Source: Candidatus Saccharimonadota bacterium
GTDB lineage: Bacteria; Patescibacteriota; Saccharimonadia; Saccharimonadales; Saccharimonadaceae
Length of the DNA: 64,000 bases
Direction of reading: 5' to 3'
NCBI GenBank assembly: GCA_028286365.1
Contig: JAQBRR010000002.1
Location: 168,165-232,164 of the forward strand
How positions within the stretch are numbered: the stretch's first letter is position 1; every line of letters begins with the position of its first letter. Both the position numbers and the translations under genes were made by a program. A model generated the notes under the pieces. It did no database searches. It was not told the origin of the DNA and saw only the letters and a list, made by a program, of their open reading frames with translations. This document shows positions 4,072-44,406 of this stretch, in pieces.

Positions 4072-4132
4072 GCCAGACTAGTGTTTGATGTTTGTGCAAT
4101 ATAACCGAACTAAGCTATCATGTAGTAAGCAT

Positions 4133-5053
4133 ATGCGTAAAGATAGAAAACGTAACTTCAGACGAGCTGGACAGGCCATTCTCTCTAGCCTTGTCGCTGT
4201 CATTATTGTCACTGTTCTTGTGTTCGTAACTCACGGTAGGGATATACCTGTACTTAATCCACATGGTTTGATTGCTGATCAGGAACGCAATTTGATCCTG
4301 CTGACGGTTGGTCTAGGGCTTATTGTTGTCATTCCTGTATTTATTATGTTGTTTTCGATTGCGTGGCGATATCGAGCAAGTAACACCAAGGCGAAGTATC
4401 AGCCTGACTTCGCAAGCCACAAAGGTATCGAAGCACTTTGGTGGGGCCTACCCTGCGTCATTATTCTTATTTTAGCTATCATCACCGGTATTTATACGCA
4501 TGCACTGGATCCATTCAAGCCAATTGATTCATCAGTAAAACCAGTTCAGATTCAAGTTGTTTCACTTCAGTGGAAGTGGCTATTTATTTATCCTGATCAA
4601 AAAATCGCAACGCTTAACTACGTTAATATTCCTAAAGATACGCCAATTAACTTTACGATTACATCCGATGCGCCAATGAACTCGTTTTGGGTACCAGCAC
4701 TTGCTGGCCAAGTTTACGCGATGTCAGGCATGTCGACACAACTTCATTTGATGGCCGATTCGGTTGGATCGTACACGGGCTCATCGGCTAATATTAGCGG
4801 AGACGGCTTTGCTGATATGCATTTTAAGGTCAACTCAATGAATGAATCTGACTTTGCTACATGGGCAAAAAAGACATCAATAGCCAGCCAGTCGCTTACG
4901 AGCAGTAGTTACGATGGGCTTGCAAAACCTAGCCATGATAATTCAGAGTCGGCGTATGTGCTGGGCGACGGTAGCCTGTATAATGAGGTTATAATGAAGT
5001 ATATGTCTCCAGATGCCGAGGGTAGTATGAATATGTCTGGATCAGGAATGTAA
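4133..5053 (+). CDS. cyoA: Cytochrome o ubiquinol oxidase subunit II
   Basis: Membrane subunit with a cupredoxin-like outer domain. Hydrophobic segments lie near residues 15-33, 55-75 and 96-118, followed by SLQWKWLFIYP and the DAPMNSFWVPALAGQVY region of quinol oxidases. The CuA-binding Cys pair of cytochrome c oxidases is missing (ANISGDGF stands at that place), so the electron donor is quinol and not cytochrome c. ATG 4133 (MRKDRKRNF) is preferred; ATGs at 4085/4088 are in frame but would add an unusual N-terminus, and a TATAAC box at 4100-4105 lies downstream of them. There is no lipobox Cys. It overlaps cyoB by one base (TAATG). Confidence 0.93.
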   Translation: MRKDRKRNFRRAGQAILSSLVAVIIVTVLVFVTHGRDIPVLNPHGLIADQERNLILLTVGLGLIVVIPVFIMLFSIAWRYRASNTKAKYQPDFASHKGIEALWWGLPCVIILILAIITGIYTHALDPFKPIDSSVKPVQIQVVSLQWKWLFIYPDQKIATLNYVNIPKDTPINFTITSDAPMNSFWVPALAGQVYAMSGMSTQLHLMADSVGSYTGSSANISGDGFADMHFKVNSMNESDFATWAKKTSIASQSLTSSSYDGLAKPSHDNSESAYVLGDGSLYNEVIMKYMSPDAEGSMNMSGSGM

Positions 5054-7023
5054 TGTTTAGCAATCTTTCCCAGATTATTTTTGGCCGATTAACACCTTCA
5101 GATTTTGTGCACGATCCGATTATGGCGGGCGCAGGCTATGCGATGATTGCTGCTCTGGTCTTGGTTATTATCGGTCTTACCTATTTTAAGAAGTGGAAAT
5201 GGCTGTGGCGTACTTGGATTACTTCACTTGATCCGAAGAAAATCGGTGTGATGTATATTATTGTCGCTGTTATTATGTTACTTCGAGGACTTGCCGACGC
5301 GCTGCTACTGCGAACTCAGCAGGCGACAGACGGTTCAGCAGGAATTCTTACCTCCGATCACTTCCAGCAGATTTTTTCGGCTCATGGCACAATCATGATT
5401 TTCTTTGTTGCGATGGGGATAATCTTTGGAATCTTTAATTTGATTATTCCGACGCAAATTGGCTCACGTGATGTTGCCTTCCCCTTTCTTAACTCAGTAA
5501 GTTTCTGGTTGTTTGCAGCGGGTATGATTCTTATCAATGCGCCACTCATTGTTGGTGAGTTCTCGACTGCGGGATGGCTCGCGTATCCGCCACTCTCGGA
5601 ATTGCAGTATAGTCCAGGTGTTGGTGTCGACTATTGGATATGGAGCCTTCAAATCGCAGGTATCGGTAGTCTTCTTTCAGGAATCAACTTCTTTGTGACG
5701 ATTATTAAAATGCGTGCGCCTGGCATGAAACTTATGATGATGCCGATTTTTGTGTGGAGTGCGCTTGCAAGTACAACGCTCATTATGTTTGCCTTTCCTA
5801 TTCTGACCGCAACGCTCGGGATGCTATCGCTTGATAGGCTTTTGGGAATGCACTTCTTTACCTCAGGTGCGGGTGGCAATCCAATGCTCTATATAAATCT
5901 CATTTGGGCATGGGGGCATCCTGAGGTCTATATTCTCGTACTTCCAGCGTTTGGAATATTTTCTGAGGTGGTGGCGACCTTTTCGGGTAAAAAACTGTTC
6001 GGCTATAAGTCTATGGTGGTTGCCCTTGCGGCCATTACTTTCCTGTCGTTTACAGTTTGGCTACACCACTTCTTCACTATGGGAGCGGGCGCTGACGTCA
6101 ACACATTCTTTGGGATTATGACTATGGTTATTGCAATTCCGACGGGGGTAAAAGTCTTTAACTGGATCTTTACGATGTATCGTGGACGAGTACGATTTAC
6201 GACGCCGATGCTCTGGTTTATGGGCTTTATTGTGACATTTACGCTCGGCGGTCTCGCGGGAGTGCTGATGTCTGTGCCACCAGCCGACTTCCAATTCCAT
6301 AACAGTTTATTCTTGGTCGCACACTTTCACACAATGATTGTTGGAGGAGTATTGTTCGGTGCCTTTGCGGGATTTGCCTACTGGTTCCCAAAGTTCACAG
6401 GCTTTACGCTTAATGAAAGATTAGGTCGGTATGCATTCTGGTTATGGATCGTCGGATTCCTACTTGCCTTTATTCCACTCTACATTCTAGGATTCATGGG
6501 AGCTACTCGCCGACTTGATCATTATGACCCATCACTTGGTTGGCAAGGTCTCTTTATTGTTGCTGGAGTTGGCGTGCTGATTATTTGTGCAGGCGTTGGT
6601 CTTCAAATACTGCAGCTCATCGTTAGTATTGTAAAACGCAACGAAAATCGTGTCGGTAATGACCCCTGGAATGGTCGGACCCTCGAATGGTCAATTGCCT
6701 CACCGCCACAGGAATATAACTATACCGTCATACCGACGGTTACTCATCGTGACGAATTCTGGGAAATGAAAAGAAGACACCATGTCGTTAAGCCTGAGTA
6801 TACTGATATCTGGCTGCCTAAAAATACTGGTGCTGGGGTTATTGTCGGACTGTTCGCTTTGATATTTGGTGCGGCAATTATTTGGCATATTATATGGCTT
6901 GTGATTGTCGGACTCGTTGGGGTGATTATTACGTTAATTATCAGGTTGACGAATGATGAGACCGAGGAAAAATTGACCGCCGCTGAAGTTGCCAAGCGAG
7001 AATTAAAAAGGCAGATAGCATGA
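5053..7023 (+). CDS. cyoB: Cytochrome o ubiquinol oxidase subunit I
   Basis: Catalytic heme-copper subunit, 656 residues, which reduces O2 to water and pumps protons. It carries AWGHPEVYILVLPAFG (CuB histidine cross-linked to tyrosine), WLHHFF (two CuB histidines) and VAHFHTMIVGG (heme histidines), and belongs to the A-type family. Length and the extra N- and C-terminal helices match CyoB. It is translationally coupled to cyoA (TAATG) and to cyoC (ATGA). Confidence 0.97.
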   Translation: MFSNLSQIIFGRLTPSDFVHDPIMAGAGYAMIAALVLVIIGLTYFKKWKWLWRTWITSLDPKKIGVMYIIVAVIMLLRGLADALLLRTQQATDGSAGILTSDHFQQIFSAHGTIMIFFVAMGIIFGIFNLIIPTQIGSRDVAFPFLNSVSFWLFAAGMILINAPLIVGEFSTAGWLAYPPLSELQYSPGVGVDYWIWSLQIAGIGSLLSGINFFVTIIKMRAPGMKLMMMPIFVWSALASTTLIMFAFPILTATLGMLSLDRLLGMHFFTSGAGGNPMLYINLIWAWGHPEVYILVLPAFGIFSEVVATFSGKKLFGYKSMVVALAAITFLSFTVWLHHFFTMGAGADVNTFFGIMTMVIAIPTGVKVFNWIFTMYRGRVRFTTPMLWFMGFIVTFTLGGLAGVLMSVPPADFQFHNSLFLVAHFHTMIVGGVLFGAFAGFAYWFPKFTGFTLNERLGRYAFWLWIVGFLLAFIPLYILGFMGATRRLDHYDPSLGWQGLFIVAGVGVLIICAGVGLQILQLIVSIVKRNENRVGNDPWNGRTLEWSIASPPQEYNYTVIPTVTHRDEFWEMKRRHHVVKPEYTDIWLPKNTGAGVIVGLFALIFGAAIIWHIIWLVIVGLVGVIITLIIRLTNDETEEKLTAAEVAKRELKRQIA

Positions 7024-7604
7024 AACAAATTGCAGATGATGTGGCTGTGAGAGACAAGAAAACACTGGGCTTTTGGATCTACCTGATGACCGACTGTGTA
7101 CTATTTGCAGCTCTTTTTGCAACTTTTGCGGTACTTCATACGAGTACATTCGGTGGTCCAACGGGCGCCAAGCTTTTCGATTTGCCATTCGTGCTCATTG
7201 AGACGATGATACTTCTAACGAGTAGTTTTACAATTGGACTCGCAGTCTTAGGTAGTGCACGAGGCTTCAAGAAACAAACTCTTATTTGGCTGGTTATTAC
7301 CTTCGCGCTCGGCGCAGCGTTCCTGACACTAGAACTAACTGAGTTTAGTCATCTTGTAGCGGATGGTAATGGTTGGGATAGAAGTGCTTTCCTGTCTTCG
7401 TTCTTTACACTTGTGGGTACACACGGACTCCATATTGCAATCGGTCTTTTGTGGCTCATTGTGATGATCATTCGATTATGGAGGTTTAATTTTAAGCAAA
7501 GTGACCTTAATCGCCTTGCGCTATTTGGCCTGTTCTGGCATTTCCTTGATATCGTATGGATATTTATTTTCAGTATTGTCTATCTAATCGGGGGCATGTC
7601 ATGA
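7020..7604 (+). CDS. cyoC: Cytochrome o ubiquinol oxidase subunit III
   Basis: A 194-residue protein with five hydrophobic segments. The start KTLGFWIYLMTDCVLFAALF and the motif GTHGLHIAIGLLWL are typical of heme-copper oxidase subunit III in quinol oxidases. It stabilises subunit I. It overlaps cyoB and cyoD by four bases each (ATGA). Confidence 0.95.
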   Translation: MKQIADDVAVRDKKTLGFWIYLMTDCVLFAALFATFAVLHTSTFGGPTGAKLFDLPFVLIETMILLTSSFTIGLAVLGSARGFKKQTLIWLVITFALGAAFLTLELTEFSHLVADGNGWDRSAFLSSFFTLVGTHGLHIAIGLLWLIVMIIRLWRFNFKQSDLNRLALFGLFWHFLDIVWIFIFSIVYLIGGMS

Positions 7605-7966
7605 AAATAAATGTAGAACAGAGGGATTCATCGACTCGTTATATTTCGTATGTCGTTGGATTTATCCTGTCGATTGTTGCGACCGTACTCGCTTACTTGA
7701 TTGTTGTTAATCATGTCTGGCCAATGGCAACTCTGGTGTACGTTATTCTCGCTATCGCTGTTATTCAATTGGTTACTCAGGCGGTCTTTTTCCTTCATAT
7801 TGGACGAGGTAGCCGCTGGAAGCTCGTTACGTTCGCATTCGCAATTCTTATCGTACTGATTATCGTTATTGGGACACTCTGGATTATGAATAATCTTAAT
7901 TACAATATGACGCGTATGACACCAGACCAGATGCTACTGTACATGAAGCAGAACGAAGGAATTTAA
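7601..7966 (+). CDS. cyoD: Cytochrome o ubiquinol oxidase subunit IV
   Basis: A small three-helix membrane protein of about 121 residues. VWPMATLVYVILAIAVIQLV and the following FFLHIG are characteristic of CyoD. It assists assembly of the oxidase. The ATG at 7601 overlaps the cyoC stop (ATGA); the frame opens upstream but that part is cyoC sequence. Confidence 0.93.
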   Translation: MKINVEQRDSSTRYISYVVGFILSIVATVLAYLIVVNHVWPMATLVYVILAIAVIQLVTQAVFFLHIGRGSRWKLVTFAFAILIVLIIVIGTLWIMNNLNYNMTRMTPDQMLLYMKQNEGI

Positions 7967-8838
7967 TGGAACGACGGTCTCGTTCGTACTTTCAATTGAT
8001 TAAACCCGGCATAACTCTCAGCAATACGCTGACTGGTATAGCTGGATTTTTCTTGGCAGCAAGTGGAATTATTGCGCCATTCAAATTAACTGCGTTTATA
8101 GGCGTGGCCTTGGGCATTGCCTTGATTATTGCATCGGCCTGCGTTGTTAATAACGTTCTTGATCGCAAGATTGATAAGCGTATGAAACGAACCGCAAAAC
8201 GCGACGTCGCGAGCGGAGTGATTAGTGTACCAAAAGCGCTACTATTTGGCGGTGTGCTTGGTGTAGCAGGCTTTATTATTATTCTCGCTTGGACTAACCC
8301 ACTTACCTTTTTGCTTGGCGTCATTGCCTATCTTTGGTATATCGTTGTGTACGGCCTCGCTAAGCGAACCACAGCGCTTAGTACGATCATAGGTGGAGTT
8401 GCAGGGGCACTCCCCCCTGTCGCCGGATACACTGCGTTAACAGGACATATCGATATGGCCGCAATCCTCTTATTTTTAATCCTCTTCTTTTGGCAAATGC
8501 CTCACTTTTACGCGATTGCTATGTTTCGGATGTCAGATTACGCCAGTGCGAAACTTCCCGTTTGGTCGGTGAAATATGGTATGAAGAGCACCAAGCGACA
8601 GATTCTCATCTTCGCTATTTTGTATGCGATTACCGCAACCCTTTTAACATTCTTTGGTTATACTGGGGTCGTTTATTTCGTAGCGAGTATAGCGCTTTCG
8701 ATCTATTGGTTGTCTCGAGGCATCAAGTTTTACAATAAATTAGATGATATAAAGTGGGCTCGAAAAATGTTCGGAGCATCTCTTCTTGTACTACTGTCTG
8801 TGTGTTTGTTGATTGCCGTGAGTGGCTACTTGCCATAG
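7966..8838 (+). CDS. cyoE: Protoheme IX farnesyltransferase (heme O synthase)
   Basis: Membrane UbiA-family prenyltransferase of 290 residues that adds a farnesyl group to heme B to make heme O for CyoB. The Asp-rich substrate motif NNVLDRKIDKRMKRT near residue 62 and the second loop YASAKLPVWSVKYG near 192 are present, with about nine hydrophobic segments. It overlaps the cyoD stop by one base. No heme synthesis genes are visible here, so the heme B source is unknown. Confidence 0.95.
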   Translation: MERRSRSYFQLIKPGITLSNTLTGIAGFFLAASGIIAPFKLTAFIGVALGIALIIASACVVNNVLDRKIDKRMKRTAKRDVASGVISVPKALLFGGVLGVAGFIIILAWTNPLTFLLGVIAYLWYIVVYGLAKRTTALSTIIGGVAGALPPVAGYTALTGHIDMAAILLFLILFFWQMPHFYAIAMFRMSDYASAKLPVWSVKYGMKSTKRQILIFAILYAITATLLTFFGYTGVVYFVASIALSIYWLSRGIKFYNKLDDIKWARKMFGASLLVLLSVCLLIAVSGYLP

Positions 8839-12913: not shown

Positions 12914-13873
12914 GTGTCTATCGTCACGATTGTATTTGGTATCTATATTGGTACATCTGTTTCTGCGTATGTAGCAAATATTATCCATCCAGGTGCAGTT
13001 GTTGGTGTTACAAAAGTAGGTCTTAGTCAGCCAAAAACTGTCGTCACTACTCCAACGACTACAGCGCCTGTCACGAAAACAACGACAAAACCAACACCAA
13101 CGACGACGGTTACACAGACTAAAGTCACGACGTCTCCCGCGCCTATTCCAACTCCAACTCCTATTGTTGTCCCTGCGCCTTCTAGTGATGTTACAAGCCT
13201 TGCTCCAGCGCCATCAACGACCACAACTAATAATTCAGGTAGTACAACAAGCTATACATCGACCAACTGGTCTGGTTATTTAGCAACAACAGGTAGTTTT
13301 ACGTCAATTTCAGGTACTTGGACAGTTGCTCGACCGACAGGTAACGGTACCTCTACGACCTCTGATGCTGCGTGGATCGGTATCGGCGGTGTTAGTACGG
13401 CCGATCTTATTCAGGTTGGAACTGACAACACGGTTAGCGCGAGCGGAGCTGTCACGACGTCAGCATTCTATGAACTATTACCAGCTGTTGCTAGTCCAAT
13501 ACTAACGATGATCGTTCAACCAGGTGACTCAATGCAGGCATCTCTTAGTGATGCAAATGGACAATGGACAATTGTGATTACGGATTTGACGAATACACAA
13601 ACGTTTACAAAAGTAGTTGCTTACTCATCAAGCCTCTCTTCTGCTGAGTGGATCGAAGAAGACCCGTTCTATGCTAACGGTACGCAAGTTCCTTTTGATA
13701 CGTTCGGCTCGGTTAACTTTGCAGGGAGTCTGACAACCAACAACGGAACGTCTGTTAACCTAAGTGGTGTCGGCGCCTCGAAAATTACGATGGTAAATCA
13801 AGCTGGAACCCCGATTGCAGTACCATCGGTCATTGGAAATGACGGCGCGAGTTTTACTGTTACTTCACAGTAA
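12914..13873 (+). CDS. Secreted/anchored G1-family glutamic endopeptidase (eqolisin-like)
   Basis: 319 residues from a GTG start. There is a hydrophobic N-terminal segment (1-25), a Thr/Pro/Val-rich linker (about 40-110), then a beta-rich catalytic domain. It begins STNWSGYLA, with the catalytic Gln in WIGIGGVSTADLIQVG (Gln167) and a Glu in SAEWIEEDPF (Glu245 or Glu248), followed by FGSVNFAGS. This pattern is that of peptidase family G1, acid-active proteases known from fungi and some bacteria. It probably acts outside the cell. The frame is open upstream of GTG and reads a basic then hydrophobic stretch without ATG, GTG or TTG, so translation may start earlier at a non-standard codon. The 134 bases before it hold no clear promoter. 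Confidence 0.82.
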   Translation: MSIVTIVFGIYIGTSVSAYVANIIHPGAVVGVTKVGLSQPKTVVTTPTTTAPVTKTTTKPTPTTTVTQTKVTTSPAPIPTPTPIVVPAPSSDVTSLAPAPSTTTTNNSGSTTSYTSTNWSGYLATTGSFTSISGTWTVARPTGNGTSTTSDAAWIGIGGVSTADLIQVGTDNTVSASGAVTTSAFYELLPAVASPILTMIVQPGDSMQASLSDANGQWTIVITDLTNTQTFTKVVAYSSSLSSAEWIEEDPFYANGTQVPFDTFGSVNFAGSLTTNNGTSVNLSGVGASKITMVNQAGTPIAVPSVIGNDGASFTVTSQ

Positions 13874-36027: not shown

Positions 36028-37128
36028 ATGTCAAAGTTGCCAATCACAACTAGCAAATCTACGCACGGAAATCGCTCCAATGGGGGCGATTTTTTTGTAA
36101 GCAAAAACTCAAAATTGTACTTATCTGACGGTACGACCTTCGGTGGACTTGCGCCTGATTGGCAGACCGGAGCCTTTAGTGGCGAAGTTGTCTTTAATAC
36201 TGGTATGACCGGCTATCCTGAGTCACTTACTGACCCATCGTATTCCAACCAGATCTTGGTATTCACCTTCCCCCTTATCGGCAACTACGGCGTTGATATC
36301 AATGCGACAGAATCAGGCAAAATCCAAGTTGCGGGCGTTATTGTTAGTGAAGCCGCCGAAGGCTGGAGCCACACGAAATCCGACCGTTCATTAATCGAAT
36401 GGTTACACTCACAGAATATTCCAATTATGACTGACGTTGATACGCGGGCACTGACCAAATATCTTCGAACTCGCGGTACAATGGGCGGTGCGATCTCCGA
36501 TAGCCCTATCAAGACGACTGATATTAAACTTGAACAAAAATTCGTTTCGATTGATGCTCCAGTCACGTATAACAAGGGCGGTAAGAAAAAAGTTATCTTG
36601 GTTGATTGTGGCGCCAAAGAAAATATCGTTCGCTCACTCGTTGCCGAGGGTCTCGAAGTGAAGCGTGTTCCTTACGACTACGACTATACAGATGAAGATT
36701 ATGACGGTGTCATGCTTTCTAATGGTCCTGGCGACCCAACAGATTATGTACCGACAATTGAAAACGCTCGCAAAGCACTTGAGCTCGGTCGCCCAGTCTT
36801 TGGTATCTGTCTTGGTACACAAATCATGGCTCTCGCTGCTGGTGCCAAGACGTACAAATTAAAGTACGGCCACCGCGGTCATAATCAGCCTTGTCTTGAG
36901 ATTGAAACAAACAAGGGCTATATCACTAGTCAGAATCATGGCTACGCAATCGACAGTGAAACCCTTCCAAAGGGCTGGAAAGTCTCTTTTAAGAACCTCA
37001 ACGATAACTCAGTCGAGGGAATCGAACATGTATCAAAGCCTTTCTTCTCGGTACAGTTCCACCCAGAGGCAACGCCTGGTCCAACAGATACGGCATGGCT
37101 GTTTGAGAAATTTAGAGGTAAATTATGA
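36028..37128 (+). CDS. carA: Carbamoyl-phosphate synthase small subunit
   Basis: About 366 residues. It supplies ammonia from glutamine to CarB: Cys in FGICLGTQIM near 258 and His/Glu in QFHPEATPG near 344. The usual CarA core starts at LYLSDGTTFGG, so residues 1 to about 28 are an extra N-terminal stretch, and this stretch is encoded over a perfect terminator hairpin. ATG 36028 is chosen because the promoter ends just before it; the alternatives are TTG 36007, inside the promoter, or an undetected start near 36100. The stop overlaps carB (ATGA). Confidence 0.92.
   Translation: MSKLPITTSKSTHGNRSNGGDFFVSKNSKLYLSDGTTFGGLAPDWQTGAFSGEVVFNTGMTGYPESLTDPSYSNQILVFTFPLIGNYGVDINATESGKIQVAGVIVSEAAEGWSHTKSDRSLIEWLHSQNIPIMTDVDTRALTKYLRTRGTMGGAISDSPIKTTDIKLEQKFVSIDAPVTYNKGGKKKVILVDCGAKENIVRSLVAEGLEVKRVPYDYDYTDEDYDGVMLSNGPGDPTDYVPTIENARKALELGRPVFGICLGTQIMALAAGAKTYKLKYGHRGHNQPCLEIETNKGYITSQNHGYAIDSETLPKGWKVSFKNLNDNSVEGIEHVSKPFFSVQFHPEATPGPTDTAWLFEKFRGKL
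36069..36097 (+). promoter_or_regulatory. Intrinsic terminator/attenuator inside the start of carA
   Basis: A 10-bp stem (36069-36078 with 36083-36092, one G-T pair) with loop AATG, followed by Ts to 36096. It lies about 45 bases after the expected transcription start and in frame within carA codons 14-23. As a Rho-independent terminator it would stop most transcription before the enzyme core unless ribosomes or another factor open it. Confidence 0.7.
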
Positions 37129-40100
37129 ACATTAAAAAAGTAGTTATCCTAGGATCAGGCGGTCTTCGTATCGGGCAGGCTGGCGAGTTCGACTATTCTG
37201 GCTCACAGGCGATTAAATCATTCAAACAAGAAAAAATCTTTACCGTTCTGATTAACCCAAACATCGCAACCGTTCAGACTGATGACGATATGGCTGATCG
37301 CGTCTACTTCCAGCCGCTTAACATTGAGACAGTTACAAAGATTCTCGAGCGCGAAAAACCTGACGCGGTCGCACTCAGTTTTGGTGGCCAAACGGCATTG
37401 AACCTGGGACTGGATCTGCATGATGCCGGCGTATTCAAACGGCTTGGTATTCAGGTATTAGGTACTCCGGTATCTGTTATTAAGGCAACCGAAGATCGCG
37501 ATATCTTTAAGAACAAGTTGGCAGAAATTGATGTTCACACTGCCCGCAGCCTTGCAACCTACAGTGTTAAAGAAGCGCTCGAAGCCGCTCGAACGATCGG
37601 CTACCCAATTATGATGCGTTCTGGCTATAGCCTTGGTGGACTTGGTTCTGGGCTTGTGACGAACGAAAAAGATCTTGAGGCTAAACTTGCTGAAGTCTTT
37701 AATAACGTTTCACAGGTTCTTATCGAAGAATACTTAACAGGCTGGAAAGAGGTTGAGTACGAAGTCGTTCGTGATATCGACGGCAACACGATTACTGTCT
37801 GTAACATGGAAAACTTTGATCCAATGGGTGTTCACACCGGTGAGAGTATCGTGGTCGCACCATCCCAGACCCTCACGAATGAAGAATACCATCGCCTCCG
37901 CGAAGTTGCGATTAAGACGATTAATCACCTCGGTATTATCGGTGAATGTAATATTCAGTACGCCCTTAATCCAGCTGATGGTGATTATCGCGTTATCGAG
38001 GTTAATGCTCGCCTCTCACGTTCGAGTGCGCTTGCCTCTAAGGCAACTGGCTATCCCCTCGCCTTCGTCGCGTCTAAACTGATGCTTGGAAAACGACTAC
38101 ACGAAATTAAGAATGCGGTAACAGGCACAACGACAGCATTCTTTGAGCCAGCGCTTGATTATATCGCGGTTAAAATGCCTCGATGGGATCTATCAAAGCT
38201 TAAGGCTAGCGATCACCACATTGGCTCAGAAATGAAAAGTGTCGGTGAAGTGATGGCACTCGGACGATCGTTCCCTGAGGCCTTGCAGAAGGCTATTCGT
38301 TCGCTCAATATTGGTGCAAATGGCTTTACAGATCATCCATACGAAATCGAGAATCCGATGGATGAAATCAAATTCGCGACTGATCGTCGTCTGTTTGCAA
38401 TCGCTGATGTTCTCGCGAAGGGCGTGAGCGTTGAAGAGATTCACAAACAGTCATATATTGACCCTTGGTTTCTCAAACACCTTGCTGACATCGAGGCAAC
38501 TAAAAGACAGCTCCAAACTGAGCCACTTAAAAGTGAGTTGCTCCACACAGCCAAGCAAAAAGGCTTCTCGGATAAGACTATCGCGAAATTAATTGATACC
38601 ACTGAGCACCTTGTTCGTAAAACTCGACTCAAGATGGGAATTATACCCGTCGTGAAGCAAATCGACACGCTGGCTGGTGAGTTCGATGCCGAAACAAACT
38701 ATCTGTATGTTACCTATCACGGTAACGTAAACGATATTAAGCCACTTGGTAAGAAAGCAATCGCGATTATTGGATCTGGGCCATACTGTATCGGATCATC
38801 CGTTGAGTTTGACTGGTCTGCGGTTAACACTGCTAAGACCCTGAACAAACGCGGCTACAAGACGATTATGATCAACTCAAATCCTGAAACTGTCTCGACT
38901 GACTTTGACCGCTCAGACCGACTTTACTTTGATGAGTTAACTCTCGAGCGAATCCAGGACATTGCTGACTTTGAGCAAGCACACGGTATTATCGTCTCGG
39001 TTGGTGGTCAGATTGCCAATAACCTCGCTCTACCTCTTGCTCAAGCTCAATACAACATTCTTGGCACATCTGCCGAGCAAATTGATAACGCCGAGGATCG
39101 TCAGAAGTTTTCTGCGATGCTTAATCGTCTTGGTATTGATCAGCCAGAGTGGCAAGAAGTTACCACGCTAAAGGCTGCCAAGAAGTTTGGTCTCGACGTT
39201 GGCTACCCACTGTTGATTAGGCCTTCATACGTCCTCTCAGGTGGTGCGATGAATGTCGTGCAGGACGAAAAGGAGCTCGAGACGTATCTTGGTGAAGCGG
39301 CCAAGTTGTCACCTGACCATCCAGTTGTCATCTCTCGATTTATCTTGAATGCTAAGGAACTCGAGATTGACGGTGTCGCCCAAAACGGTAAATTAGTCAT
39401 CTATGCGATCTCTGAACACATCGAAAATGCCGGTGTTCACTCAGGTGACGCAACAGTAGTCTATCCGGCGCAGAAACTGTATCTAGAAACTGTTCGTCAA
39501 GCCAAGAATATCGCTAAGGCTGTCGTCAAGAATCTGGACATCACTGGTCCATTCAATATCCAGTTCCTCGCCAAGGATAACGAGCTAAAGGTCATCGAGA
39601 CGAATGTGCGTGCCTCGAGGTCGTTCCCCTTTGTATCGAAAGTATCTGGGCATAACTTTATCGCCATCGCGACCGATGCAATCCTTGGTATCAAGAATGA
39701 CATGGTCTATCAGACGCTTGAACTTGACCACGTTGGTGTCAAGAACCCCCAGTTCTCATATAATCGACTCAAGGGGGCTGACCCTGTCGCTGGTGTCGAG
39801 ATGGCGTCAACCGGTGAAGTCGCTTGCTTCGGAGATAACCTCGAAGAGGCATTCTATGCATCATGGCTAGCAACAGATCAAAAAATCACTGGTAAACACT
39901 TATTCCTCAGTATTCCGACTCAGCAGAAGCATAAATTTGTAGAGGAAGCAGCGCTGCTTGTGGCTGACGGCTGGACTATCTATACGACCGAAGGGACACA
40001 TGATTATCTTAAGTCACATGACGTGAAGACCACCAAACTATACAAGATATCAGATCACAAGGAGCCATCGGTTCATTCTGCACTTCTGGGTAAGAAGTTT

Positions 40101-40292
40101 GACCTGGTTATTAATGTGCCAACCCCGCAAGACACTTCTACAGATGGCGCGACGATTCGCCGACTGGCCATCGACAATCACCTGCCTCTTATGACGAATC
40201 CTGAAACTGGCCGACTACTTCTTCGCTGTCTAACGGATCCAGAACTTAAAGATGTCCAGCCAAAATATTGGCAAGAATACGTTCCGAAGTAG
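37125..40292 (+). CDS. carB: Carbamoyl-phosphate synthase large subunit
   Basis: 1055 residues with two ATP-grasp halves: the first has GSGGLRIGQAGEFDYSG and RSGYSLGGLGSG near 165, the second GSGPYCIGSSVEFDWS near 548 and RPSYVLSGGAMNVV near 700. Both are followed by metal-binding VNARLSRSSALASKATGYP and TNVRASRSFPFVSKVSG motifs. The C-terminal MGS-like domain (from about 930) is the usual allosteric site. It makes carbamoyl phosphate for pyrimidines; no arginine genes are in the window. It is coupled to carA and ends before a terminator. Confidence 0.97.
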   Translation: MNIKKVVILGSGGLRIGQAGEFDYSGSQAIKSFKQEKIFTVLINPNIATVQTDDDMADRVYFQPLNIETVTKILEREKPDAVALSFGGQTALNLGLDLHDAGVFKRLGIQVLGTPVSVIKATEDRDIFKNKLAEIDVHTARSLATYSVKEALEAARTIGYPIMMRSGYSLGGLGSGLVTNEKDLEAKLAEVFNNVSQVLIEEYLTGWKEVEYEVVRDIDGNTITVCNMENFDPMGVHTGESIVVAPSQTLTNEEYHRLREVAIKTINHLGIIGECNIQYALNPADGDYRVIEVNARLSRSSALASKATGYPLAFVASKLMLGKRLHEIKNAVTGTTTAFFEPALDYIAVKMPRWDLSKLKASDHHIGSEMKSVGEVMALGRSFPEALQKAIRSLNIGANGFTDHPYEIENPMDEIKFATDRRLFAIADVLAKGVSVEEIHKQSYIDPWFLKHLADIEATKRQLQTEPLKSELLHTAKQKGFSDKTIAKLIDTTEHLVRKTRLKMGIIPVVKQIDTLAGEFDAETNYLYVTYHGNVNDIKPLGKKAIAIIGSGPYCIGSSVEFDWSAVNTAKTLNKRGYKTIMINSNPETVSTDFDRSDRLYFDELTLERIQDIADFEQAHGIIVSVGGQIANNLALPLAQAQYNILGTSAEQIDNAEDRQKFSAMLNRLGIDQPEWQEVTTLKAAKKFGLDVGYPLLIRPSYVLSGGAMNVVQDEKELETYLGEAAKLSPDHPVVISRFILNAKELEIDGVAQNGKLVIYAISEHIENAGVHSGDATVVYPAQKLYLETVRQAKNIAKAVVKNLDITGPFNIQFLAKDNELKVIETNVRASRSFPFVSKVSGHNFIAIATDAILGIKNDMVYQTLELDHVGVKNPQFSYNRLKGADPVAGVEMASTGEVACFGDNLEEAFYASWLATDQKITGKHLFLSIPTQQKHKFVEEAALLVADGWTIYTTEGTHDYLKSHDVKTTKLYKISDHKEPSVHSALLGKKFDLVINVPTPQDTSTDGATIRRLAIDNHLPLMTNPETGRLLLRCLTDPELKDVQPKYWQEYVPK

Positions 40293-40317: not shown

Positions 40318-40369
40318 AGGGCTCCGTCGAATCGACGGAGCCCTAGATTCTCTCTTTCTTAGAGAATCT
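40318..40369 (+). terminator. Terminator after carB (two hairpins)
   Basis: A GC-rich stem with arms 40318-40328 and 40334-40344, then a second 9-bp stem (40345-40353 with 40361-40369) with a T-rich loop. There is no long T run, so strength is uncertain. It may work both ways, since the convergent surface-protein gene ends at 40486. The remaining bases 40370-40485 hold a 9-bp imperfect hairpin at 40443-40463 and no gene. Confidence 0.6.
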
Positions 40370-40485
40370 CTCTTCCCTGGATCATGACTCGTTCAAGCTC
40401 AACAGGGCGCGGTTTGCTGGAAACGTCCAGCGGCGATTTGGTATGGTTAGACCTAAGGTCTTACCACTTGACTCACTACAACAAC

Positions 40486-42615
40486 TTAGTCAACGATGGA
40501 CGTCTTGCGGCTGCGACCACGGATGAGCAGGAGTGCGATTCCGAGGATGAGCGCTCCGCCCGCGATGCCGAGACCACCCCATGCGATGGTCCCACCGGTG
40601 AAGGCGAGGCCAGCGATGCAGATGGTTGCAGCCGGGATGGTGTAGGTCACGATCCGAGTCAGAGATCCAAGGTCGGATCCGTTATCGAACTTAAACCCGG
40701 TGTCGGCCGTGAGGCTGACATCGTGAGTGCCGACGGACTGGTCGAGCGGTGCGTCGACTGTGAAGTGGGCGTTAATGGGGGTCACCGTAGCAACTCCCGT
40801 CACGCCGCACTTTGCAGCCACACTGACGCTGGACGACGAGTCCGCGCCACTTGTTGCACAAACTAGATCAGACAACGCTGCAAGCGAGTAGGTCGTCGCC
40901 GACCCATCCGTAAGCACGTAGCCATCCTCAGCCGAGAACGAGACCGTCCCGTCGCCGTTGTCCGTGGTGTGGACACCGGTCGGCTGGTCAGCCTGAATCT
41001 CCGAGAACGTCAACGCCGGGTTCGGCGTGTTCGTGTCGGTGTTGCAGGTTGCCTGCGGGGTGACCGGAGTTACCGGCGTCAACGGGCAGTCGTACGACGT
41101 GAACGTGTACGTGTGGCTTCCCTGCTGGTGAGTAATGTCACTCGCCAGCGTGTGGGCCACTACTGTTACCGTGCCAACGAGCGGGTGGGTTCCCGCCGTG
41201 TAGCGCGTGATGCCGTCGGACTCGAGCGGGTACTTCTCGTAGGACTCCAGGGTCGGCAACGTGTACGTGTTGCAGGTCTGGCTTCCGTCAGGGAAGGTTG
41301 CCTCTGGCGCGACATAGCTAACCGTACCGCAGTCGCCTGCGTATCCGGTGAGTGTCGCGCCGTCAGACGTCGGACCACCGTTACCGGGGTACGACGAACC
41401 TGTCTGGAATGCGTAGCCTGTGTACGTGTTGTGCGGGTAGGCCGTAGCCACCTGCGCAATCGTGAGGCCAAGCACGTGGCTGTTCGAGCCAACACCCGCG
41501 ACCGAGTTCTGGTCGATGGTGTTGCCCGGTGAAACGGAGAACGAAGCATAGCTAGGTCCACCGTCAGCCGACAGGTTGAAGATCAATCGTGAGAACATCC
41601 CATTGCCGACGACATTCGTGTCGGTGAACGAGAGACTCACGACTCCTTGAGCGTTGCCGCTGACCGGAATGACCGTGCCTGTGGCGTGACCGTCATGGTA
41701 CGAACGGTAGTCCACGCCAGCTGCGATTTGAGTCGGAGTGTGATCCCCGGACTCGGTGTACGCAGGTCCGTTCACCGTGCAGGTGATACCAGCAGGCGGC
41801 GGTGGTGGCGGGCACGGGTCGTTGACGACGTAGATGTAAGCGACGCCGTTTCCACCCGGTGCCAGGTACGAGCCGTCTTGTGCTCCGTCCGGTCCTGCGA
41901 GAGAAGTGGTACCTGTAAGCCAGGTGCTCTCTGCAGTCCCGTGAATGTAGACGTCACCCTGCCACGAGGTCCCACAGGTTGTGGGAATCGTGGGAAGCGT
42001 GATTGTTGTCTCGTTCGTGACGGAGACCTTCGTCTGCGGGTACTTCACGTTGTACGCGTCGGTCTGCCACAGCGTTGCGTCGTAGGTCTGGATGACCACG
42101 ATGGGCTTCACGCAATCGGGGTACGCGAGGAGCGACTGATCGCCCTGCGCATCCCACGAGTGGGTGACGCCCTTCTTGACGATCGAGCCAGCCGGGAATA
42201 TGTCTCCCGAGTGGTCGATGTGACCGGCCTGGTAGAACGCCGCGGTGCTGGTCGTGAGCTTGTTGTAGTTCCCGCTCTTGCCATCTGCATGACAGAACGT
42301 GATCTGCGACGAGTCCTCGTTGCCATCACTCGAGACGGTAGCCATGGCCGCTGCGAATACGGGTGCCGGAACTGGCGGAGGTGTTGGATCAGGCGCCGGG
42401 ATGACCGGTGCCGTTGTTGATCCGTCGGTTGGCGTAGCGGACTGCGTCGGGTCCGATGTGGAGACAACGCTGGTTGGCGTGTCCGTGGGCGGGGTTGTGT
42501 CGTCGGCCGAGGCCGGTGACACGACCAGAACTAATGAAACGAGCCAGCCAAGCACAACTGCGAGTGCTGTGGCCGCGAATACGGACGCCTTGCGGCGTCC
42601 TCGCTTGCTTTTCAT
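40486..42615 (-). CDS. Large secreted surface protein with LAFTG sortase signal
   Basis: 709 residues. Signal peptide at 1-38 (basic KSKRGRRK, hydrophobic core, ASA cleavage site), a Thr/Pro-rich linker to about 90, then a long Thr/Ser/Gly-rich beta region with many Cys (for example ITFCHADGKSGNYNKL near 108 and a PCPPPPPP break near 268). It ends with LAFTGG at 670, a hydrophobic helix and the basic tail RGRSRK. This C-terminus matches the LAxTG signals cut by class E sortases in Actinobacteria. Codon use is strongly GC-rich (60% in a sampled 60-base line), unlike every neighbour, which suggests recent transfer from a high-GC donor. The start has AAGGAGGG upstream. The binding target or role is unknown. 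Confidence 0.85.
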   Translation of the reverse strand: MKSKRGRRKASVFAATALAVVLGWLVSLVLVVSPASADDTTPPTDTPTSVVSTSDPTQSATPTDGSTTAPVIPAPDPTPPPVPAPVFAAAMATVSSDGNEDSSQITFCHADGKSGNYNKLTTSTAAFYQAGHIDHSGDIFPAGSIVKKGVTHSWDAQGDQSLLAYPDCVKPIVVIQTYDATLWQTDAYNVKYPQTKVSVTNETTITLPTIPTTCGTSWQGDVYIHGTAESTWLTGTTSLAGPDGAQDGSYLAPGGNGVAYIYVVNDPCPPPPPPAGITCTVNGPAYTESGDHTPTQIAAGVDYRSYHDGHATGTVIPVSGNAQGVVSLSFTDTNVVGNGMFSRLIFNLSADGGPSYASFSVSPGNTIDQNSVAGVGSNSHVLGLTIAQVATAYPHNTYTGYAFQTGSSYPGNGGPTSDGATLTGYAGDCGTVSYVAPEATFPDGSQTCNTYTLPTLESYEKYPLESDGITRYTAGTHPLVGTVTVVAHTLASDITHQQGSHTYTFTSYDCPLTPVTPVTPQATCNTDTNTPNPALTFSEIQADQPTGVHTTDNGDGTVSFSAEDGYVLTDGSATTYSLAALSDLVCATSGADSSSSVSVAAKCGVTGVATVTPINAHFTVDAPLDQSVGTHDVSLTADTGFKFDNGSDLGSLTRIVTYTIPAATICIAGLAFTGGTIAWGGLGIAGGALILGIALLLIRGRSRKTSIVD

Positions 42616-42701
42616 TTTATTCCCTCCTTGGGAATCTGGAATCGAACGAGTGCCAATTGGCCTTCGCTTTGTTACTTGTAGTGAGTTGTGAGATGTACGT
42701 A

Positions 42702-42728
42702 GTGGAGCCAGGGGCCCCTTGGCTCCAC
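42702..42728. repeat. Strong GC-rich hairpin in the surface-protein leader
   Basis: Arms GTGGAGCCA (42702-42710) and TGGCTCCAC (42720-42728), with further pairing of GGG to CCC inside. It lies between the promoter at 42750-42778 and the ATG at 42615, so it should be part of the 5' leader RNA on the minus strand. Confidence 0.6.
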
Positions 42729-42749
42729 GTGCATCGCACTAACTCACTC

Positions 42750-42778
42750 ATTTTACCACAAATAGACCTTTTTGTAAA
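42750..42778 (-). promoter_or_regulatory. Promoter for the surface-protein gene
   Basis: Minus strand: TTTACA (42773-42778), 17 bases, TAAAAT (42750-42755). This gives a leader of about 128 bases. Confidence 0.65.
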
Positions 42779-42806: not shown

Positions 42807-42837
42807 TTGACACCGATTCTATCCACGGGTGTATACT
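42807..42837 (+). promoter_or_regulatory. Promoter for the 83-residue gene and its long leader
   Basis: TTGACA (42807-42812), 19 bases, TATACT (42832-42837). Transcription is expected near 42844, some 284 bases before the gene. Confidence 0.5.
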
Positions 42838-42843
42838 AATTAC

Positions 42844-43127
42844 AGTCATGTAGGTACTGGCACAAAACACCTTTTCACCTACAGATTTATGCGAGAAGTC
42901 ACTCTACTTCAAATCAGCGACGATATGCACACTGGTAGTCATTTACTCCCAAGCGCCCCTGTTGATCGTACAATCTCAAACAGTAATTCAGTAAACAGAA
43001 AACATTCGAACGGCTTGTTTTCCTCTCTGAATCACTTCCTCCTAAATCCGTTCGTCGACCAATCACCTCGTGTCGGCATTTTTGCGTTTACCTATATAAA
43101 AATACAATCTCTTGGAGGATACAGATC
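42844..43127 (+). other. Long structured leader or small RNA
   Basis: No convincing gene lies here. Pairing elements in order: TGTAGGT/ACCTACA (42849-42855 with 42877-42883) right at the predicted RNA start, ACGAT/ATCGT (42920-42924 with 42965-42969) and CGAACGG/CCGTTCG (43007-43013 with 43048-43054). It ends with GGAGG before the next ATG. It could be a cis-regulatory leader or an independent RNA; no known RNA family was recognised. Confidence 0.4.
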
Positions 43128-43379
43128 ATGAACCGAACAGAAATAAACGAACTAGTCATCGTACCAGTAATGGGTTTTAAGAAGGACCTCGCAGCCTACC
43201 CACGTCGCATGGTATACGAAGGTGCAACTTATGACTTTCTGGACGCAGGTCTTCGCTGCCTGGTACGCCACGGCGGACGCATTGCAGAAATCCTGACGCT
43301 ATCAGATGGCCGCGCTAACTTCCGCCTTCGTAGTGACAACCGTGGAGGTAACTGGACGCTCTTAAGTATTACCGCTTAA
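43128..43379 (+). CDS. Small basic protein, unknown function
   Basis: 83 residues, mixed beta/alpha, slightly basic, without signal or membrane helix. It contains a run of Arg-rich strands near the end (ANFRLRSDNRGGNWTLLSITA). The family is not recognised. GGAGG 10 bases before the ATG and a strong terminator 60 bases after the stop support a real gene. The terminator at 43438-43465 is shared with the convergent gnd. Confidence 0.65.
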   Translation: MNRTEINELVIVPVMGFKKDLAAYPRRMVYEGATYDFLDAGLRCLVRHGGRIAEILTLSDGRANFRLRSDNRGGNWTLLSITA

Positions 43380-43497: not shown

Positions 43498-44406
43498 TTA
43501 CTGTTTGCCGTCAATGTTGTGGCCACCGAACTTGTTGCGCATGGCAGCAAGTAGTTTGGTAGCGAAGTTTATATCACCCTTTTGTGAGGCTAAACGTACG
43601 TCGAAGGATGTTTGGATTGCAGGTAGCGGAATACCAAGCTCCTTAGCCGTTTCAAGTGTCCAGCGAGCTTCACCTGATTCAGCAACAACCCCTTCGATAC
43701 CATCGAGCGTTGGGTTCTCGTGTAGGGCCTGACGTGTTAGGTCATTAAGCCATGAAGTTACCACGCTACTTTGCTGCCAGATATCCCCTGCTTTCGCGAG
43801 ATCAATATCGCTGTAAGGGCCTTCCTTGAGCATGCGATACCCCTCAGCGAGGCTTTCCATCATGCCATATTCGATTGCATTGTGAACCATTTTAACGTAG
43901 TGCCCGCTACCGCTGGTACTAAAGTGCTGATGGCCACCGCGAGGGGTCGAAAGTGTGTCTAGGGCGCTAGAAATGGCCTCGTACGCGGATTGATCACCAC
44001 CGACCATCATCGAAAAGCCGTTTTCATAGCCCCACACGCCACCACTGGTGCCGATATCAAGCAGTATGCTACCCTTAGCGGCGACTTTGTCAGCGCGGGC
44101 TTTATCACCACGATAGTCGCTGTTACCACCGTCAATGATCGTACTGCCTGTTGGTAGGACTTCAAGCCATGCGTCAAGTTCGCTCTCGATAACATCAGCA
44201 GGAATCATGATCCATAAAGTAACTGGTTGGCCATCAAATACTGCCACAACGTCAGCTTTTTCGTAGGCTGCGATTGCACCGTGCGTAACGGCTTCGTCGA
44301 TGGGAGCACGGCTACGATTGTGAGCGATGACTTCATGGTTACCTTCTGCTAGTTTTTGGGCAATCTGGCCACCCATACGTCCAAGTCCTGAAATTGCAAT
44401 TTTCAT
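43498..44406 (-). CDS. gnd: 6-phosphogluconate dehydrogenase (decarboxylating), short form
   Basis: 302 residues, the short bacterial type that usually prefers NAD. It has ISGLGRMGGQIAQKLAE at the N-terminus, IDGGNSDYRGDKARA near 92, LDIGTSGGVWGYENGFSMM near 115 and the catalytic Lys/His region HYVKMVHNAIEYGMMESLAEG near 167. It converts 6-phosphogluconate to ribulose-5-phosphate and CO2. The product leads to ribose-5-phosphate and PRPP, the start of both nucleotide pathways here. It follows pgl by 2 bases. Confidence 0.94.
   Translation of the reverse strand: MKIAISGLGRMGGQIAQKLAEGNHEVIAHNRSRAPIDEAVTHGAIAAYEKADVVAVFDGQPVTLWIMIPADVIESELDAWLEVLPTGSTIIDGGNSDYRGDKARADKVAAKGSILLDIGTSGGVWGYENGFSMMVGGDQSAYEAISSALDTLSTPRGGHQHFSTSGSGHYVKMVHNAIEYGMMESLAEGYRMLKEGPYSDIDLAKAGDIWQQSSVVTSWLNDLTRQALHENPTLDGIEGVVAESGEARWTLETAKELGIPLPAIQTSFDVRLASQKGDINFATKLLAAMRNKFGGHNIDGKQ

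Follow-up and report, generated by a model that had tools for sequence, protein, structure and literature searches.

A probable conserved expression site for recombining, GC-rich surface-protein genes in two genera of Saccharibacteria

The window, a 64,000-nt stretch of DNA from a Candidatus Saccharimonadota bacterium, contains a GC-rich surface-protein gene, one allele of a locus that is long established and has been exchanged repeatedly (Table 1). Near relatives carry unrelated coding regions between conserved flanks, behind a conserved promoter and hairpin; modules are shared between alleles, and the gene itself combines atypical codons with a C-terminal anchor. The locus is probably a conserved site of expression for proteins that recombine, are anchored by a sortase or in the membrane, and come from a high-GC pool; we infer them to be adhesins.

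The reverse-strand open reading frame begins with ATG and has the same coordinates as in the first-pass annotation, which had singled it out by its base composition. The local GC content is 59–63% within the gene versus 45–50% in the adjoining genes. In a ranking of the 686 ORFs with 150 aa or more in the genome (850,738 bp in two contigs, 99.98% complete, 0.13% contamination), its GC of 0.615 is the highest (mean 0.446, sd 0.029) and its GC3 of 0.731 is the third highest (mean 0.394, sd 0.057). Moreover, C-ending codons make up 85% of its two-fold codons, compared to 39% genome-wide, and its codon fit to its own genome is the second worst of the 686. The gene is indeed a compositional outlier, and the gene-by-gene comparison of codon use that had been proposed as a check also sets it apart; its composition is foreign-looking.

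Table 1. Features of the surface-protein gene and of the site that holds it (window positions)
Feature	Positions	Strand	Basis or remark
carB, convergent neighbour, synteny marker	37125..40292	+	96% identical in G023
Conserved 3′ flank, begins 7 bp past the stop codon, ends in inverted repeat AGGGCTCCGTCGAATCGACGGAGCCCT (40318-40344)	40318..40479	-	DNA comparison
GC-rich mosaic surface-protein gene, 709 aa	40486..42615	-	Signal peptide, Pro/Thr/Ser-rich stretch, several modules, LAFTG anchor
LAFTG sorting pentapeptide, residues 670-674, then hydrophobic helix and RGRSRK	40594..40608	-	Translation, NF058582 score
Module 3, residues 586-662	40630..40860	-	Stretches in G705 and G753 GC-rich ORFs
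Module 2, residues 277-434	41314..41787	-	gp78 match, Microbacterium phages Kozie and MO526
Module 1, residues 104-165 (ITFCH..LTTS..AFY..GH..HSGDI.PAGS..SW.AQGDQSLL)	42121..42306	-	Matches in family genomes and a phage contig
Signal peptide, residues 1-37 (MKSKRGRRK-hydrophobic-ASA)	42505..42615	-	By eye from the translation
Leader with Shine-Dalgarno AGGAGGG	42616..42676	-	Differs from nearest relative; belongs to the exchanged segment
5′ UTR stem-loop, core GTGGAGCCAAGGGGCCCCTGGCTCCAC at 42702-42728	42681..42748	-	In 12/12 occupied sites, sequence differing
Extended -10 promoter TTTACA-N17-(TG)TAAAAT	42750..42778	-	Conserved across two genera
Conserved 83-aa ORF, marker of the site, oriented divergently to the surface-protein gene	43128..43379	+	Orthologues in 150/295 genomes of the order
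gnd-type 6-phosphogluconate dehydrogenase, synteny marker	43498..44406	-	94% identical in G023

The borders of the site emerge from a comparison with the closest relative, G023, whose carB and gnd genes are 96% and 94% identical to those of the window (G000 denotes the window's own genome and the other G-numbers are the relatives compared). Between these two genes, G023 encodes an unrelated protein of 666–679 aa (65% GC) ending in LALTG. The DNA of the two genomes is 83–87% identical up to window position ~42676 and 80% identical from ~40479 onward, whereas their coding DNA is unalignable; the divergent segment extends from ~60 bp before the ATG through the stop codon. No whole-protein homologue was found in 59 relatives (E 1e-3, the own genome aside), and single modules occur in a few members of the family. 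The genome itself contains no spare copies or silent cassettes, which indicates an external source and leaves gene conversion from internal copies unsupported. The divergent 83-aa protein has no Pfam match; its leader (42830–43127) is unusually long and conserved, and the ORF is a useful marker of the site.

Occupied sites lie beside the 83-aa ORF in 12 genomes from two genera (g1 and g8), with a different GC-rich surface-protein gene each time. Across these sites, the coding GC is 0.59–0.66 (0.69 for a short C-terminal piece in G010) and GC3 is 0.69–0.90, while the neighbouring genes have native GC. Further alleles include a third protein, with LASTG, that is divided between two contig ends in G010, a LAFTG protein in G013, a GC-rich ORF extending past the contig end in G004, and a 367-aa protein in G014. 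Six of the nine g8 genomes inspected have a GC-rich gene divergent from the 83-aa ORF: G304 (LASTG), G272 (LAFTG), G210, G160, G034 and G184, the last disrupted or gapped. In a second group of the window's genus, pyrG comes after gnd with no surface-protein gene, and the site is empty in other relatives. Close homologues of similar GC across relatives had been named as evidence against acquisition; genes of similar GC do recur at the site, and close homologues were not among them.

Other GC-rich DNA was observed away from this site. GC-rich or LPNTG surface proteins also occupy a second site in G312, G152 and G705, where the neighbours are RNase-J/TlyA-like and YchF-like genes. In G152 and G312, the gene between the tlyA-like and ychF-like genes encodes a module-1 protein (GC 66%, GC3 0.91) and adjoins a sortase-like ORF; the protein in G705 is the one with LPNTG. 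The 46%-GC genome G272 includes ~20 kb of DNA with 64–68% GC (G272:C1 ~375000–397000), an integrated high-GC element or foreign stretch. Another GC-rich patch of the window's genome (G000:C1:360854-362628) encodes a predicted lipoprotein of 403 aa (59% GC) and a membrane protein of 181 aa (GC3 0.75); it adjoins an LPHTG surface protein and has a REP-type transposase nearby.

The promoter, and a stem-loop directly downstream of it, are present at all 12 occupied sites. The sequence of the hairpin varies between genera and the stem-loop persists, with a folding z of -6.1 in G000 and -1.8 to -6.2 across the 12 sites; an Rfam search at the hairpin found no known RNA family. The absence of a U-run makes a terminator unlikely, and the hairpin may instead stabilise the mRNA. 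The view that both the promoter and the Shine-Dalgarno sequence are native is correct for the promoter, which is common to relatives, and fails for the Shine-Dalgarno sequence, which lies within the unshared last ~60 bp before the ATG.

An all-against-all comparison of the site alleles reveals their mosaic structure. In particular, the first 121 aa of the G023 and G014 proteins are 87% identical, with no similarity beyond. The G013 protein (g1) is 54% identical over 125 aa to that of G184 (g8) and 51% identical over 79 aa to that of G034, and the G160 and G272 proteins are 65% identical over 214 aa. Modules are common to both genera, in differing order. At the DNA level, G034 and G160 have flanks that are 86–87% identical, a single 339-bp module that is 93.2% identical, and an unalignable remainder over most of the coding region; the higher similarity of the module compared to its core surroundings suggests that it was exchanged recently. 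Overall, near relatives retain flanks and promoter around unrelated coding regions, and modules are shuffled between alleles. With one genome compared per species, these sequence comparisons place the exchange between species. ComEC is present in the window's genome, and Saccharibacteria are naturally competent (PMC10633639).

The translated C-terminus reads LAFTG-GTIAWGGLGIAGGALILGIALLLI-RGRSRK, and the C-terminal sequence of the whole protein is LAFTGGTIAWGGLGIAGGALILGIALLLIRGRSRKTSIVD. Module 3 has stretches with 42–45% identity in GC-rich ORFs of G705 and G753. A Pfam scan returned nothing convincing and recognised no stalk or adhesive domain; weak matches to Pfam MauE and PHROG Zot were rejected as transmembrane or low-complexity matches. 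AlphaFold single-sequence models of two segments had pLDDT values of 30 and 34 and no recognised fold, and a sequence search of the PDB gave one chance match (14 bits). From its sequence, the protein is predicted to be secreted, surface-exposed and anchored. Its anatomy (secretion signal, anchor, modularity, and diversification with kept expression) fits a protein that is exposed and under pressure to vary. The simplest role would be a host-directed adhesin or recognition protein, or a cloak against host or phage; with no recognised domain or fold, it is from this anatomy that we infer adhesion.

LAXTG proteins are the substrates of class E sortases in Actinobacteria (PMC5148588), and the first-pass annotation had assigned the LAFTG end to that class. 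The anchor is of this type: like the actinobacterial substrates, the protein has LAxTG, a hydrophobic helix, a basic tail, a signal peptide (recognised by eye) and high GC. Its score against the NCBIfam model NF058582 (‘LAVTG motif-containing sortase-dependent surface protein’) is 24.9 bits (E 1.6e-5), close to and below the cut-off of 27. Unlike for those substrates, no class E sortase accompanies it. The genome encodes five Sortase-domain proteins, four nearest to class F and one (~394 aa) nearest to class C, all far under the cut-offs of their classes; against the class E model, they score 28.9–53.8 bits versus a cut-off of 160, and none of the 28 same-genus genomes has a sortase over that cut-off. 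The proposed search for a class E sortase gene thus came back empty in both the genome and the genus.

Every one of the 15 genomes examined has a sortase of ~400 aa, and no other sortase was found in G004, G010 and G272. The clear sorting signals in the main contig of G272 (796 kb) are two LPRTG, one LPVTG and one LAFTG, which belongs to the allele at the surface-protein site; with one sortase and both LPxTG and LAFTG proteins, one enzyme would serve both, if LAFTG is cut. In the window's genome, LAFTG occurs in the surface-protein gene only, and the other clear sorting signals (LPHTG twice, LPNTG and LPTTG) belong without exception to genes of ordinary GC. The ~400-aa sortase, universal in the group, may take both LAxTG and LPxTG as substrates. 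Four alleles, those of G014, G210, G160 and G034, are without LAxTG, and each precedes a GC-rich ORF that matches Sortase weakly; three of these four sortase-like ORFs have a Leu-Ile/Met-Thr-Cys motif. No sortase adjoins any of the six LAxTG alleles. This split of six versus four is suggestive and, because the genomes are related, does not amount to a statistical test. The four adjacent sortase-like ORFs indicate that some alleles travel with a private sortase.

One Sortase-domain protein of the window's genome (G000:C2:294347-295030) has LNLMTFDGKW where active relatives have LNLITCEGTW. As it contains no cysteine at all, it cannot be a catalytically normal sortase; it is flanked by secY-like and ribosomal-protein genes, and is probably inactive or repurposed.

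Two of the modules have relatives in phages. Module 1 matches segments of surface proteins from three genomes in other genera of the family (G155, G152 and G312) at 55–60% identity, and, at 63%, a secreted protein encoded on a 32.7-kb, 67%-GC viral contig, a tailed phage bearing endolysin and tape-measure genes. In G155, module 1 is found in a protein of native GC (50%), which implies that the pool is not wholly foreign in composition. Module 2 has 30% identity over 159 aa to gp78 of the Microbacterium phages Kozie and MO526, itself a LAQTG-anchored protein with a signal peptide; apart from a weak match in G013, module 2 was not found in the other 378 genomes sampled across the phylum. A scan of viral contigs with the full protein and with module 2 gave no match, and the other alleles had none among phages either. 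Plasmids, searched with several queries, yielded nothing useful (a Rhodococcus stretch, 39 bits and E 0.7, was disregarded). A scan of 84,980 bacterial and archaeal species genomes for exact 8-residue patterns of the surface protein found no relative; a 33-aa match in Chitinophaga is spurious because it is antisense in another gene's region. Taken together, these matches point to a pool that high-GC bacteria and their phages have in common with the group. No donor sequence emerged, with the actinobacterial genomes covered by this one scan of exact 8-residue patterns.

These observations are best explained by a site whose frame and contents probably have separate histories. The promoter, the 5′ UTR stem-loop, the divergent 83-aa ORF and the 3′ flank would be inherited vertically, and the segment that opens ~60 bp ahead of the start codon and ends with the stop codon would be replaced or reshuffled by recombination, either whole or module by module. 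The replacing GC-rich surface-protein genes would circulate among Saccharibacteria-type bacteria, with high-GC bacteria and their phages, probably the actinobacterial hosts, as their ultimate source. Natural competence, together with homologous recombination in the flanks, may mediate the exchange. The protein itself would be exported by the Sec pathway, cleaved and anchored by the universal sortase of ~400 aa or simply retained by its C-terminal helix, and would act towards the host as an adhesin or cloak.

The first-pass annotation had proposed an acquired, host-like gene. Its foreign composition and its link to high-GC bacteria, through two phage-borne modules, both stand; a single recent transfer finds no support in that form. 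Such a transfer, of an intact actinobacterial host surface protein that uses a class E sortase, agrees with the atypical composition and codon use, with the nearness of the LAxTG anchor to the actinobacterial model, and with the Microbacterium-phage relative of module 2. It is largely refuted and improbable, as neither the genome nor the genus has a class E sortase, the 8-residue pattern scan of 84,980 species genomes gave no close relative, and 11 other genomes hold different GC-rich genes, for LAxTG or variant proteins, at the same site and behind the same promoter. This recurrence of GC-rich alleles is the reason for rejecting plain acquisition from the host. Contaminant actinobacterial DNA, joined between carB and gnd by an error of assembly or binning, is scarcely credible when promoter and UTR are continuous from the native flank, the same arrangement with different GC-rich ORFs exists in 12 genomes, and the two-contig genome is nearly complete with little contamination.

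Alternatively, the gene could be vertically inherited and very fast-evolving, its GC upheld internally by codon selection or by GC-biased repair at a recombination hot spot, with no foreign input. The constancy of high GC at the site over two genera and the relatives of module 1 in other genera of the family both suit this explanation. It is unlikely, because the coding DNA of G000 and G023 is unalignable between flanks of 80–87% identity, the G034/G160 module is more similar than the core flanks, genera have modules in common in different orders, and module 1 matches a high-GC phage protein at 63% identity. The finding that both modules with outside relatives lie on tailed-phage contigs as short secreted or LAQTG-anchored proteins would also fit if the surface proteins were phage ‘morons’, brought by lysogeny or transduction of phages infecting both partners and serving the phage through receptor masking or superinfection exclusion. 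There is little probability in this account, given that no phage genes or att-like repeats lie beside the gene and that the borders of the exchanged segment are a UTR and a stop codon, not a phage attachment site.

The preferred reading, an expression site with exchanged contents, has parallels in other bacteria. The FCT region of Streptococcus pyogenes has variable adhesin and pilus genes, and sortases, between conserved flanks. The two are alike in a fixed chromosomal site, conserved flanks, mosaic surface-protein genes and a sortase that accompanies some alleles; they differ in phylum and proteins, and the present site usually holds one gene behind one conserved promoter and hairpin, with coding DNA 15–20 points above genome GC. 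A hypervariable locus of Gracilibacteria has one predicted extracellular protein, long UTR stem-loops and a repeat shared with a co-existing bacterium (PMC6851277). It too is in a CPR bacterium and joins a hypervariable, predicted extracellular protein to a UTR stem-loop; there, nucleotide repeats vary and the PTD repeat is kept, whereas here whole modules and proteins are exchanged. As in domain-shuffled fibrillar adhesins (PMC10952558), the anchored surface proteins are modular and evolve by domain shuffling, although no adhesive or stalk domain is recognised in the window protein. Kozie gp78 and its MO526 homologue resemble it in module 2, the signal peptide and an LAxTG-type anchor (LAQTG in the phage), and differ in being phage-borne and in having that single module in common, at 30% identity.

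Several other features of the window were observed. It contains genes for a quinol/cytochrome o-type oxidase together with protohaem farnesyltransferase (4085–8838), an aerobic respiratory cluster in a 0.85-Mb genome, and numerous purine and pyrimidine biosynthesis genes (18901–60209); as carB is present in only 3 of the 28 genomes of the genus, the pathway is patchy in this group. A secreted 319-aa protein (12914–13873; NWSGY...GTWTVARP...AAWIGIGG) resembles, by eye, the G1 (eqolisin-like) peptidases.

Known relatives of the window bacterium live on other bacteria. Tentatively, and with less than even probability, the locus could be a dedicated capture-and-express site through which small epibionts would take surface modules from the host and its phages, edit them by recombination, and switch or tune the target of attachment, with some alleles bringing a sortase with a matching signal. 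The site, with its own promoter, fixed position and species-specific content, is a concrete candidate for a host-determining surface molecule of epibiotic Patescibacteria; it holds high-GC modules, some of them in phages of high-GC bacteria, and its address can be found in any genome of both genera.
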